NCBI GenBank assembly: GCA_944389075.1
Contig: CALXLA010000025.1
Span: 1-34,933 of the forward strand
Direction: 5' to 3'
Length of the DNA stretch: 34,933 nucleotides
Source: an uncultured Spirochaetaceae bacterium
GTDB taxonomy: Bacteria > Spirochaetota > Spirochaetia > Sphaerochaetales > Sphaerochaetaceae
Part shown: piece after piece, positions 29,759 to 32,939 of the stretch
Layout: every line of letters starts with the position of its first letter
Position numbering within the stretch: the first letter of the stretch is position 1
The notes under the pieces: model-generated
Told to the model about the DNA's origin: nothing
The model's input: the letters and a program-made list of their open reading frames with translations, nothing else
Databases searched by the model: none
Position numbers and translations under genes: made by a program

Positions 29759-30979
29759 ATGTACGTTGCTATCTGCGGTCCAAAAGGCAAAGAATCTGTA
29801 AGTATAAGAGAAGATTACATACCACAGGGCTCTGATAAAAAGAAAACAAGGGTTATAAAGAACCTCGGACCCTTGAGGAACCTTATAAAGGATGATCCTG
29901 ATTACATAATCAGACTCAAGGCTGAGGTAAAAAAAGAATCTCAACGCATCAAGGACGAAGGAAATGTCATCATTCTCGCATCCACTGAAGAGATCAACAG
30001 AGCCTCGGACAGTTATAGATATGTGACTATCGGGCATTGTCTTGCAAGAAAGATCTGGTCTTCACTTGAACTCGATTCCATATTGCCAGAATCATTATTC
30101 ACTGCAGTGCTGAAAGCAATCTGCGGAGATGTATCCTCTTTCTATGGCATGATGGAGCATCCTGATCAAGAAAAAGAATTATTGTCCGAACAGATCATCA
30201 GGCAAATAGTTGATTCCATTTCCAGGGTCATGGAAAGGAACTTATCAGAAGCTTTCTGTATTGATATAGGGAGAAACGTCTTCCTCTTTGATGGCAATAT
30301 GATTCCAATTTCAGTTTCGACATTCGACGGCAAATCGATTAATGGTTTTCTGGATGCTATAAGAAGAGCGAGGAAAGACTTCATCATCGACAGCATAACA
30401 GTTATGCCAAGCTGGCATCTTTCATCGGAAGAGAATCTTGCCTTGATTTCAGATGAAGGATACGGCTTCATTGCATATTCTGCATGGATGTCAGAAATAA
30501 CTGGTTCGGAATATAGCTGCAAGGCGAAAATGCGCCTATCTGAAACAGAAATTGTGAAGACTGGAAAAGCCGGTGCTCCGAGGAAATACAGGCACATAAG
30601 CACAAAAACCAGAATATTCCGGCAAGAACAAATCCTCATGACTGACATTGAAACCGACGAGAGAGAAGCTTTTGACCTCTATGAGCGCAGACTCTGGCTT
30701 GAAGATGAGATGAGAAAACTTTCTTCAACTGATACCCTGGTGATATTCCTTTGTCTCATTTTGATTGGATATCTGCAATACAAAGCCGGAAAGGAAATAT
30801 CACTGAAGCAGGCAATACTCAGCGCTTCTGCGATAATCGTTGGGACAGATAATCCATCCTTCCTTGTTACTGTCACAGATTTGTATATAGAAGCTGCAAA
30901 GGCCCTCAATGCACAAACATTAAGAAAAACGATGTCCACAAAGCAGATCAATGAGCTTTTTGCAACGAAATCCAATTAA
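29759..30979 (+). CDS. IS1634-like transposase, degenerate or domesticated
   Basis: A 406-residue intact frame. The start (MYVAICGPKGKESVSIREDYI, then KKTRVIKNLGPLRNLIKDDP) resembles the N-terminus of IS1634/IS4-type transposases, as does the late YERRLWLEDEMRKL (like the Y-x2-R-x-x-IE region that holds the catalytic Glu). In the middle, the second catalytic Asp block, normally ADRG.hS.eN, reads VMPSWHLSSEENLALI, so that Asp is lost. The first DDE block is also poor, and the protein is shorter than the usual 500 or so residues. No terminal inverted repeats were found. Transposition is unlikely; an intact frame without activity suggests either recent decay or reuse as a DNA-binding protein. 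Confidence 0.55.
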   Translation: MYVAICGPKGKESVSIREDYIPQGSDKKKTRVIKNLGPLRNLIKDDPDYIIRLKAEVKKESQRIKDEGNVIILASTEEINRASDSYRYVTIGHCLARKIWSSLELDSILPESLFTAVLKAICGDVSSFYGMMEHPDQEKELLSEQIIRQIVDSISRVMERNLSEAFCIDIGRNVFLFDGNMIPISVSTFDGKSINGFLDAIRRARKDFIIDSITVMPSWHLSSEENLALISDEGYGFIAYSAWMSEITGSEYSCKAKMRLSETEIVKTGKAGAPRKYRHISTKTRIFRQEQILMTDIETDEREAFDLYERRLWLEDEMRKLSSTDTLVIFLCLILIGYLQYKAGKEISLKQAILSASAIIVGTDNPSFLVTVTDLYIEAAKALNAQTLRKTMSTKQINELFATKSN

Positions 30980-30998: not shown

Positions 30999-31029
30999 TT
31001 GACAAGAGCCAACGGGGGGGGGGTAAAAT
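30999..31029 (+). promoter_or_regulatory. Poly-G-spacer promoter of lipoprotein 1
   Basis: TTGACA (30999-31004), a 19-base spacer ending in ten Gs (31014-31023), then TAAAAT (31024-31029). The G run touches the -10 box. A change of two Gs would restore the ideal 17-base spacing. The expected start is near 31036. Confidence 0.8.
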
Positions 31030-31035
31030 CCTTTT

Positions 31036-31056
31036 AGATTCAATATCTGGAGGATT
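31036..31056 (+). repeat. Conserved leader, copy 1
   Basis: Begins AGATTCAATATCTGGAGG and is identical over 21 bases to 32013-32033. It holds an AGAT/ATCT mini-hairpin and the GGAGG ribosome site. It begins 6 bases after the -10 box in both copies. Confidence 0.9.
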
Positions 31057-31060
31057 TGAT

Positions 31061-31609
31061 ATGAAGAAGACTATCACTCTGCTTCTTGCTGTTATGATGC
31101 TTTTTGCGTTCACAGCATGTAACAATGGAACACCTAGGCCTGGTGATGAACTCACGCTTGATGACAACGCCACAATGGCAAATGGAACAGTAAACTTCAA
31201 GAACAGTGACACAACAGTACTTAGTAAGGTTAGTGGCAACAACTATAAAGTAACAGGCGTTCTTGCAAAAATGAATGCAGCTCAGGCTACAGCATGGGGA
31301 ACTGTTGAAGGATCTCAATATGTTGCTCTTGAAATCCCTACTGGCGTTGACGCGACAACAAGAAGAGGCTGGGTTTCTGCTGCAGATGCCGCAAAATCCG
31401 AACTTGACGATTCTGCATTCAAAGTAATGAATGATTTAAAAGTACTTTCAAAAGACGATGCAACATGGGGAATGATTCTTGCTGTCACAACAGGTGATAC
31501 CCCTCGCACGGATATTGAGGGCAACTATGTCTGGAGAGTAGAGATTACAGAAGACGGCAAAGATACTGTTATTTACACAGTCGATATGTCTGCGTATTTC
31601 ACTGAGTAA
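31061..31609 (+). CDS. Small lipoprotein 1 of the poly-G cassette
   Basis: A 182-residue lipoprotein: signal MKKTITLLLAVMMLFAFTAC with the lipobox Cys20, then a polar linker (NNGTPRPGDE). One beta-rich domain includes YKVTGVLAKMNAAQATAWGT and VALEIPTGVDATTRRG, and the C-terminus has VWRVEITEDGKDTVIYTVDM. A matching arrangement (VKADLESMN, then LALLIDTGE) occurs in the second lipoprotein, so the two share a domain. Likely surface or periplasmic-face anchored; function unknown. AT-leaning codon use differs from the core genes. A strong terminator follows. Confidence 0.85.
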   Translation: MKKTITLLLAVMMLFAFTACNNGTPRPGDELTLDDNATMANGTVNFKNSDTTVLSKVSGNNYKVTGVLAKMNAAQATAWGTVEGSQYVALEIPTGVDATTRRGWVSAADAAKSELDDSAFKVMNDLKVLSKDDATWGMILAVTTGDTPRTDIEGNYVWRVEITEDGKDTVIYTVDMSAYFTE

Positions 31610-31631
31610 TTCTCAAAAAAATAATTTATCA

Positions 31632-31659
31632 GGGCATGCTTATTGGCATGCCTTTTTTT
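31632..31659 (+). terminator. Terminator between lipoprotein 1 and HTH 1
   Basis: GGCATGC-TTATTG-GCATGCC (31633-31652), then seven Ts. The HTH ribosome site (AAAGGAG) begins right after the T-run. Confidence 0.9.
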
Positions 31660-31673
31660 AAAGGAGCCTTTCT

Positions 31674-31883
31674 ATGGGAGAAAGAAAGGAATCCTCCGGA
31701 CTGAAAAGACCATGGATTACTTCAGAAAAACGTCTGGAATGCCTGGAACTTTTCAATAAAGGTTACGGATATAAGAAGACAGCCAGACTGACAGGACTCA
31801 AAATATACACAGTCCGCGATTACTATAAGCGCTACACTATAGGTGACACGTCCTGGGCATATAGATTCTGCCAGAAAGGCTGA
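31674..31883 (+). CDS. Small helix-turn-helix protein 1
   Basis: A 69-residue basic protein: ITSEKRLECLELFNKGYGYKK then TARLTGLKIYTVRDYYKRY, a single HTH like those at the start of IS3-type OrfA proteins, followed by GDTSWAYRF. About 60% identical to HTH 2 by eye over the core. There is no other domain, so it may bind DNA as a small regulator or be a leftover of a transposase. AAAGGAG precedes its ATG by 8 bases. No promoter fits between the lipoprotein terminator and this gene, so it would be made by read-through. It has its own terminator. Confidence 0.75.
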   Translation: MGERKESSGLKRPWITSEKRLECLELFNKGYGYKKTARLTGLKIYTVRDYYKRYTIGDTSWAYRFCQKG

Positions 31884-31886
31884 TAT

Positions 31887-31911
31887 AAGCTGGGTTCTTC
31901 CCAGCTTTTTA
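31887..31911 (+). terminator. Terminator after HTH 1
   Basis: AGCTGGG-TTCTT-CCCAGCT (31888-31906), merging into a T-run. Confidence 0.88.
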
Positions 31912-31976
31912 TATTATTTTCTGATCTACTGGAAATTTTCTCATCAAGTCGATTATTTAAATTATTGAAAATTTGA

Positions 31977-32006
31977 TTGACATCTTCCTAAAGAGGGGGG
32001 TAGTCT
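31977..32006 (+). promoter_or_regulatory. Poly-G-spacer promoter of lipoprotein 2
   Basis: TTGACA (31977-31982), an 18-base spacer ending in six Gs (31995-32000), then TAGTCT (32001-32006). The G run touches the -10 and the conserved leader follows after 6 bases, exactly as in cassette 1. Confidence 0.75.
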
Positions 32007-32012
32007 ATATTC

Positions 32013-32033
32013 AGATTCAATATCTGGAGGATT
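32013..32033 (+). repeat. Conserved leader, copy 2
   Basis: Identical over 21 bases to 31036-31056, including the GGAGG ribosome site of lipoprotein 2. Confidence 0.9.
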
Positions 32034-32036
32034 CGT

Positions 32037-32939
32037 ATGAAGAAAATTTCGATTGTTCTTCTTGCTGTTGCTATGCTCTTTGCATTTGCATCATGTGCCA
32101 ATAATTCATCCATACCTGAAGGCTGGAATATTGGTGTAAGAGTTGGACAGCATAAAGCTGGTTACTCAGAAGACTATGGCAACTGGAAGTTCGCAGAAGC
32201 GGAACTGAATGGAAATATAATTACTGTCAAAGCAGATCTTGAAAGCATGAATACTTATGCAAGCTCGGTCTCTTCACAGGGTAGTGCAAAATGGCTTGCG
32301 CTCCTTATTGATACAGGAGAAACAGATCTTACAAAAGTTAAATATAACGGTGAAGCTCTTGATTCTACTGCTGCAAATGAATACAAAGATCTGAAAGCTG
32401 CAGATGATACAGATGCAAAGTCTAGTGAACTTGTTCTTTGGATTAAGGCAGATGATGCAGCATACAGCAATGGTGGACGTTCAATCAAATTCTCAAAGGA
32501 AAATGCAGAGGATGTATTCCTTACAATCACTGTAGAGGATACAACACCTGATGTTTTCGCTCTTCACTCTGATTATGACGTAATCGATGGTAAGGTAAAT
32601 AAATATCAGGATGTCACAGTAAGTGATGATGGAACAGTTTCTGGGACAATTAAGTATGCAACAGCTAATGGTTTCAATAATGAAGAACCAGCACAGAACG
32701 CAGGATATTACTTCTGTTTCGATGTAAACTCTGAAAAGGTTGCTTCTGTAAAATCATCTCTGAATGGTGAAAATGCAAAACCATATACATCTAACGATGG
32801 CTCAAATGAGTTCATGTTCTGGCTTGGAAGTGATGCTGCTAAGGCTAAGGATGTAACGCTTACAATAACACTTGAAGAAGAAACAAGTACATTTAAGACT
32901 GTAAACTTCTCAGGTGTAACATTTGAAGCTAAAAAGTAA
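32037..32939 (+). CDS. Lipoprotein 2 of the poly-G cassette, two-domain
   Basis: A 300-residue lipoprotein: signal MKKISIVLLAVAMLFAFASC with lipobox Cys20. The mature part has two similar beta-rich units. The first ends ELVLWIKADDAA...DVFLTITVED and the second EFMFWLGSDAAKAKDVTLTITLEE, so it looks like an internal duplication of the kind of domain found once in lipoprotein 1. No catalytic motif is seen. Probably outer-membrane anchored and exposed; a role in binding or antigen variation is only inferred from the promoter type. AT-leaning codon use. Confidence 0.85.
   Translation: MKKISIVLLAVAMLFAFASCANNSSIPEGWNIGVRVGQHKAGYSEDYGNWKFAEAELNGNIITVKADLESMNTYASSVSSQGSAKWLALLIDTGETDLTKVKYNGEALDSTAANEYKDLKAADDTDAKSSELVLWIKADDAAYSNGGRSIKFSKENAEDVFLTITVEDTTPDVFALHSDYDVIDGKVNKYQDVTVSDDGTVSGTIKYATANGFNNEEPAQNAGYYFCFDVNSEKVASVKSSLNGENAKPYTSNDGSNEFMFWLGSDAAKAKDVTLTITLEEETSTFKTVNFSGVTFEAKK

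Follow-up and report, generated by a model that had tools for sequence, protein, structure and literature searches.

Two lipoprotein genes in the window analyzed here, the whole 34,933-nucleotide contig CALXLA010000025.1 of an uncultured Spirochaetaceae bacterium (assembly GCA_944389075.1), are each preceded by a -35 hexamer, a run of Gs and a -10 hexamer that the run abuts. We consider it likely that these sites belong to a family of slippage-prone G-tract promoters that renders its lipoproteins phase-variable. In this proposal the window sites are sigma-70-type promoters of a genus-wide family driving small, diverse lipoproteins. Every member combines TTGACA and a short spacer with a G tract, usually of nine, that adjoins TAnnnT, and continues into a short leader and a lipoprotein signal peptide of stereotyped form. 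The tract would act as a slippage-prone spacer in which gain or loss of a G alters the -35/-10 distance and, with it, promoter strength, independently at each of about ten loci per genome. Under this mechanism, switching is expected of the first window site (copy 1, G10), and a slow or stabilized state of the second (copy 2, G6 after AGA). The elements of the two copies, read from the sequence unless otherwise stated, are as follows.

30999..31004, plus strand: copy 1 -35 hexamer TTGACA, conserved in the family, with a C before the hexamer and an A-rich stretch upstream
31005..31013, plus strand: copy 1 spacer, non-G part AGAGCCAAC, 9 bases; in most family members 9-10 nt with AAC, TAC or ACC at the end
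31014..31023, plus strand: copy 1 G10 tract, adjoining the -10 hexamer; predicted slippery switch (from the sequence and the family length distribution)
31024..31029, plus strand: copy 1 -10 hexamer TAAAAT
31036..31056, plus strand: copy 1 leader AGATTCAATATCTGGAGGATT, 21 nt, with a short hairpin and the Shine-Dalgarno sequence GGAGG, identical to the copy 2 leader
31977..31982, plus strand: copy 2 -35 hexamer TTGACA
31983..31994, plus strand: copy 2 spacer, non-G part TCTTCCTAAAGA, 12 bases
31995..32000, plus strand: copy 2 G6 tract, short, adjoining AGA; probably slow or locked (from the sequence and the family distribution)
32001..32006, plus strand: copy 2 -10 hexamer TAGTCT, of the class I consensus TAGnnT described below (from the sequence and the family)
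32013..32033, plus strand: copy 2 leader, identical to the copy 1 leader AGATTCAATATCTGGAGGATT, 21 nt

Six bases separate the -10 hexamer from the leader in both copies, the ATG start codons lie at 31061 and 32037, and the -35/-10 spacing is 19 in copy 1 and 18 in copy 2. In copy 2 the AGA before the G6 run gives the appearance of a longer tract interrupted by an A. Lipoprotein signal peptides, ending MLFAFTAC and MLFAFASC, open both open reading frames (ORFs). The two sites, their coordinates and spacings and the shared leader had all been proposed in a sequence-only reading of this stretch and were confirmed. TTGACA-N5..15-G6-TANNNT and the leader core each occurred exactly twice in the window; the former was absent from 100 dinucleotide shuffles and the latter likewise from shuffled sequence. 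A chance origin was rejected on the basis of these shuffles and of reversed controls in the source genome and the genus.

The sequence-only reading had proposed a search of the rest of the genome for TTGACA-N-poly(G)-TANNNT before this leader. In the 2.23 Mb (60 contigs) of the source assembly there were about ten distinct sites of this type and none with the reversed pattern. Eight of the 22 runs of at least seven Gs in this genome fall within TTGACA-bearing lipoprotein promoters, and a further G8 run, without a perfect TTGACA, also lies 5' of a lipoprotein gene; the other two promoter sites are copy 2 itself, with its G6, and one T-broken tract. Relaxing the pattern gave 258 sites (the sum of the listed per-genome counts) in 37 of 48 genomes from the genus, compared with two matches for the reversed pattern, while the C-tract equivalent was rare (five sites across the 48 genomes), indicating an orientation bias of the G strand. 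An ORF with a lipobox followed 82 of the 88 sites examined, and in most of the six exceptions the downstream sequence was cut by a contig end. A second search guarded against circularity by using only DNA that encodes the signal-peptide motif MxFAFxxC and ignoring the promoter. In the genus, 29 of 30 inspected matches had TAnnnT directly preceded by a G tract that was unbroken or broken once, and 26 of the 30 had a correctly placed TTGAC; in the source genome all eight matches had a G-tract promoter. The architecture, its recurrence and its association with lipoproteins are direct observations, and they support the assignment of the window sites to a genus-wide promoter family that stands nearly always 5' of lipoprotein genes.

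Promoter anatomy was examined in 128 collected sites, 118 of which have an uninterrupted tract, with lengths of G6 (1), G7 (2), G8 (17), G9 (69), G10 (21), G11 (5) and G12 (3). The sites fall into two groups. Those of class I have 9-13 non-G bases and a spacing of mostly 18-21 (mode 19), with a -10 of the form TAGnnT in 92 of 110, whereas class II has 6-8 non-G bases, a modal spacing of 16 and often TATnnT, only 4 of 18 sites having G at the third place of the -10 (Fisher p = 4e-7 for the class difference). The 5' context is an A-rich region with a C before TTGACA, and 100 of 110 distinct sites carry a Shine-Dalgarno sequence. The leader hairpin was rejected as a general feature: although both window copies have it, folding in a set of 74 leaders was not clearly better than in shuffled sequence (mean -0.87 vs -0.90 kcal/mol). 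One locus (L013) carries a decayed second copy, TTGACAAAAGCTTACCGGGGAGGGGTGAATTC, 44 nt upstream of the live promoter, and similar GGGGTGAAT remnants lie 5' of two other promoters (L009 and L012), which suggests tandem duplication of promoters followed by decay.

Similarity between loci at the DNA level is concentrated in the promoter, leader and signal peptide, and the mature proteins differ and are often unrelated. This pattern could also arise if recombination between copies kept the promoter-leader-signal peptide block alike and swapped or homogenized lipoprotein heads, with the G tract as a passenger. Assemblies often break within the same block, as seen at contig ends in six genomes (G004, G009, G018, G355, G425 and G427), an observation that fits recombination and from which it also follows that locus copy numbers are probably underestimated in short-read assemblies. 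Recombination alone, however, leaves unexplained why G8-G10 lies between -35 and -10 in nearly every copy, and we regard it as a very improbable sole account, although it could act alongside slippage.

Near-identical copies were compared to see whether the tract changes fast. Six pairs of copies show no differences over 70-117 flanking bases, and three of the six differ in G number alone. Two sister genomes (G018 and G407) share four matching promoters with ~92-99 percent identical flanks, and spacer composition or length differs in all four (G10 vs G9; GA-G8 vs A-G10; T-G9 vs CCC-G10; T-G9 vs TA-G9). These tract-length differences are observed directly and match the prediction of slippage, and they support the G tract as the fastest-changing position among near-identical copies. 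The same differences might instead reflect slow drift of the tract over evolutionary time with no working switch. This has been proposed for the majority of homopolymeric tracts in Propionibacterium acnes, for which clade-consistent lengths and slow accumulation are reported (PMC4746626); that case is the chief reason for caution about a switch, and the differences found here, all between paralogues or species, are of a kind that drift would produce. In the three pairs with zero flanking substitutions, however, the tract has outpaced the rest of the promoter, and some reason is needed for G8-G10 tracts to persist across hundreds of sites, so we hold this explanation to be improbable.

Promoter activity, slippage within a population and an effect of tract length on transcription are inferred, and for copy 1 phase variation by slippage appears to be the best explanation. 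The sequence-only reading had called both lipoprotein genes phase-variable. For copy 1 this claim fits a G10 tract long enough for frequent slipping (about 8 or more) in a family whose tract changes fastest between copies, but it is not supported for copy 2, which falls below that length and is probably stabilized and too short for fast switching, because its G6 after AGA is the shortest of the 118 uninterrupted tracts.

Several points weigh against phase variation by slippage. Most tract comparisons are between paralogues and not alleles, none of the length differences found lies within one population, assembly errors within G runs are possible, and some near-identical pairs carry equal tracts. 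The modal spacing of 19 differs from the textbook optimum, and the narrow length distribution (G8-G10 in 107 of the 118 uninterrupted tracts) is also expected of a fixed promoter element. In the latter case the G tract would be a regulator site, or a DNA-shape element for RNA polymerase, that keeps a constant length and co-regulates the lipoproteins. Lengths clustered narrowly around G9 and the strong orientation bias, with G favored on the non-template strand, fit such an element, as does the finding that a longer G tract accompanies a shorter non-G spacer (p = 0.005). Ten tracts interrupted by A or T, in which slippage should be much reduced, point the same way, since they retain the overall length (spacing 19 in seven, 20 in one and 21 in two) and the genes that follow stay open over the stretch read. 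A fixed element does not account for near-identical copies that differ in G number only, and with family spacings from 14 to 22, and G9 in both the class with mode 16 and that with mode 19, the spacing to -35 is not fixed. We therefore consider a fixed element unlikely and continue to favor slippage.

The spacing itself does not follow the expectation of the sequence-only reading, in which G8 would give copy 1 an ideal 17. The modal value of 19 accounts for 51 of the 118 uninterrupted tracts, the second class lies at 16 and 17 is uncommon; the interrupted tracts sit above 17 throughout, and among perfect TTGACA/TATAAT pairs of the genus spacings peak at 16, whereas 17 and 18 do not rise above background. 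Spacers do not simply compensate to a constant 17 bp, although N9 and N10 spacers both centre at ~19. The assembled majority may represent a low or OFF state, such that contraction raises expression in class I and expansion does so in class II; alternatively, 18-19 bp may be a tolerated or preferred distance when the spacer contains a G tract, which we weakly favor because the broken tracts sit at 19-21. The architecture is also found beyond the genus, in other spirochaetes and many other bacteria. TTGACA-spacer-G8+-TAnnnT occurs in many phyla, often 5' of exported or surface-type proteins, and a near-consensus -10 is present at 63 of 98 non-spirochaete sites; spacings in this set peak at 18-19 (16 in 15 sites, 17 in 12, 18 in 19, 19 in 28 and 20 in 8). 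A more speculative proposal, which we think possible but doubtful, is that G-tract promoters operate at 18-20 bp and not 16-17, through an unusual geometry of the poly(dG) spacer, and that this rule is common across phyla. Hints in its favor are the mode of 19, including tracts unlikely to slip, vs 16 for ordinary pairs, and the peak in the other bacteria. If the rule were true, many phase-variable promoters would have been assigned the wrong ON length. The spacing data also question the usual practice of taking a 17-bp spacer as the mark of the ON state.

Slippage of this sort is a known mechanism, established for porA and TP0126, and the present family most likely consists of phase-variable promoters of the same kind, with a G tract between recognizable -35 and -10 hexamers and an exported or surface product, as the lipoprotein signal peptides of both window genes and of the 82 of 88 sites above indicate. 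In Treponema pallidum the OmpW-like TP0126 has a poly-G between -35 and -10 whose length is reported to set expression (PMC7864442, citing Giacani 2015), and its optimum is reported as 17 nt. TP0126 resembles the present family in being a spirochaete gene with poly-G between the hexamers and an outer-surface product, but it is a single non-lipoprotein gene, and the reported optimum contrasts with the 19 or 16 of most family members. Neisseria meningitidis porA also has poly-G between -35 and -10, where length shifts lead to graded expression steps and immune escape (PMC3639595); porA is one porin gene, from an unrelated phylum, whereas here each genome has about ten unlinked genes for lipoproteins that share one promoter type. 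The tprE/G/J and tprL genes of T. pallidum likewise encode spirochaete surface proteins, and the tprL tract of 7-11 Gs, mostly 9, varies within an isolate (PMC7864442), its commonest length resembling the modal G9 here. The genus-family tract, however, lies wholly inside the spacer, and neither window tract spans the -10 region as in the tprL type, in which the tract covers the -10 and spacing is unchanged. Intergenic tracts of P. acnes such as HPT_37 are also placed between -10 and -35, with a proposed effect on spacer length (PMC4746626), but are C tracts of clade-fixed length with no gene-family association. We found no genus-wide lipoprotein set of such promoters in the literature searched, and a search on phase variation in Sphaerochaeta returned no papers; as far as that literature shows, the family is new for the genus and is unusual in so many lipoproteins sharing it. 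If phase variation is correct, a little-studied uncultured spirochaete genus joins the organisms that randomize their surface, and does so with one promoter design on about ten lipoproteins per genome rather than on a single porin. Since ordinary metagenome reads are enough to read G tracts, ON and OFF states would then be trackable in uncultured natural populations.

The genes served by the two window promoters, and the terminator between them, are as follows.

31061..31609, plus strand: lipoprotein 1, 182 amino acids, signal peptide MKKTITLLLAVMMLFAFTAC, no Pfam family
31631..31659, plus strand: intrinsic terminator after lipoprotein 1
32037..32939, plus strand: lipoprotein 2, 300 amino acids, signal peptide MKKISIVLLAVAMLFAFASC; the genus has distant relatives of its first mature domain

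Because the intrinsic terminator follows it, the lipoprotein 1 gene appears to be a single unit. Neither lipoprotein could be given a function by family, with no Pfam or NCBIfam match above cut-off. Structural modeling of lipoprotein 2 was confident over about residues 31-170 only; its first mature domain is predicted to be mainly beta, and against the PDB the model gave only weak immunoglobulin-like matches, none with E <= 0.001. Upstream, an ORF at window positions 29759-30979 with partial similarity to IS1634-family transposases stops ~20 bp 5' of the copy 1 -35, and a small ORF at 31674-31883, between the two lipoprotein genes, has a weak helix-turn-helix (HTH_23) match and its own terminator.

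Both window tracts lie 5' of ORFs and so differ from the intragenic tracts of frameshift contingency loci, an arrangement that other genes of the source genome do display. A G9 lies within an HsdS-type specificity gene (L206, contig C4), and another lies inside a family-2 glycosyltransferase (GT2) gene (L223, contig C57), with a G11 directly upstream of a second GT2 gene on that contig (L224); these three are probable further contingency loci. A G10 at C27:17292-17301 splits an Mrr/ResIII-type restriction gene (L212, C27:15791-18798) into two frames and divides its ResIII domain, so that the gene looks like a phase-variable gene in the OFF state. By their anatomy, these typical contingency genes indicate that the genome uses G tracts as switches elsewhere. 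A G11 is also found at the extreme 5' end of a DUF362 gene (L221, contig C51, around 46470).
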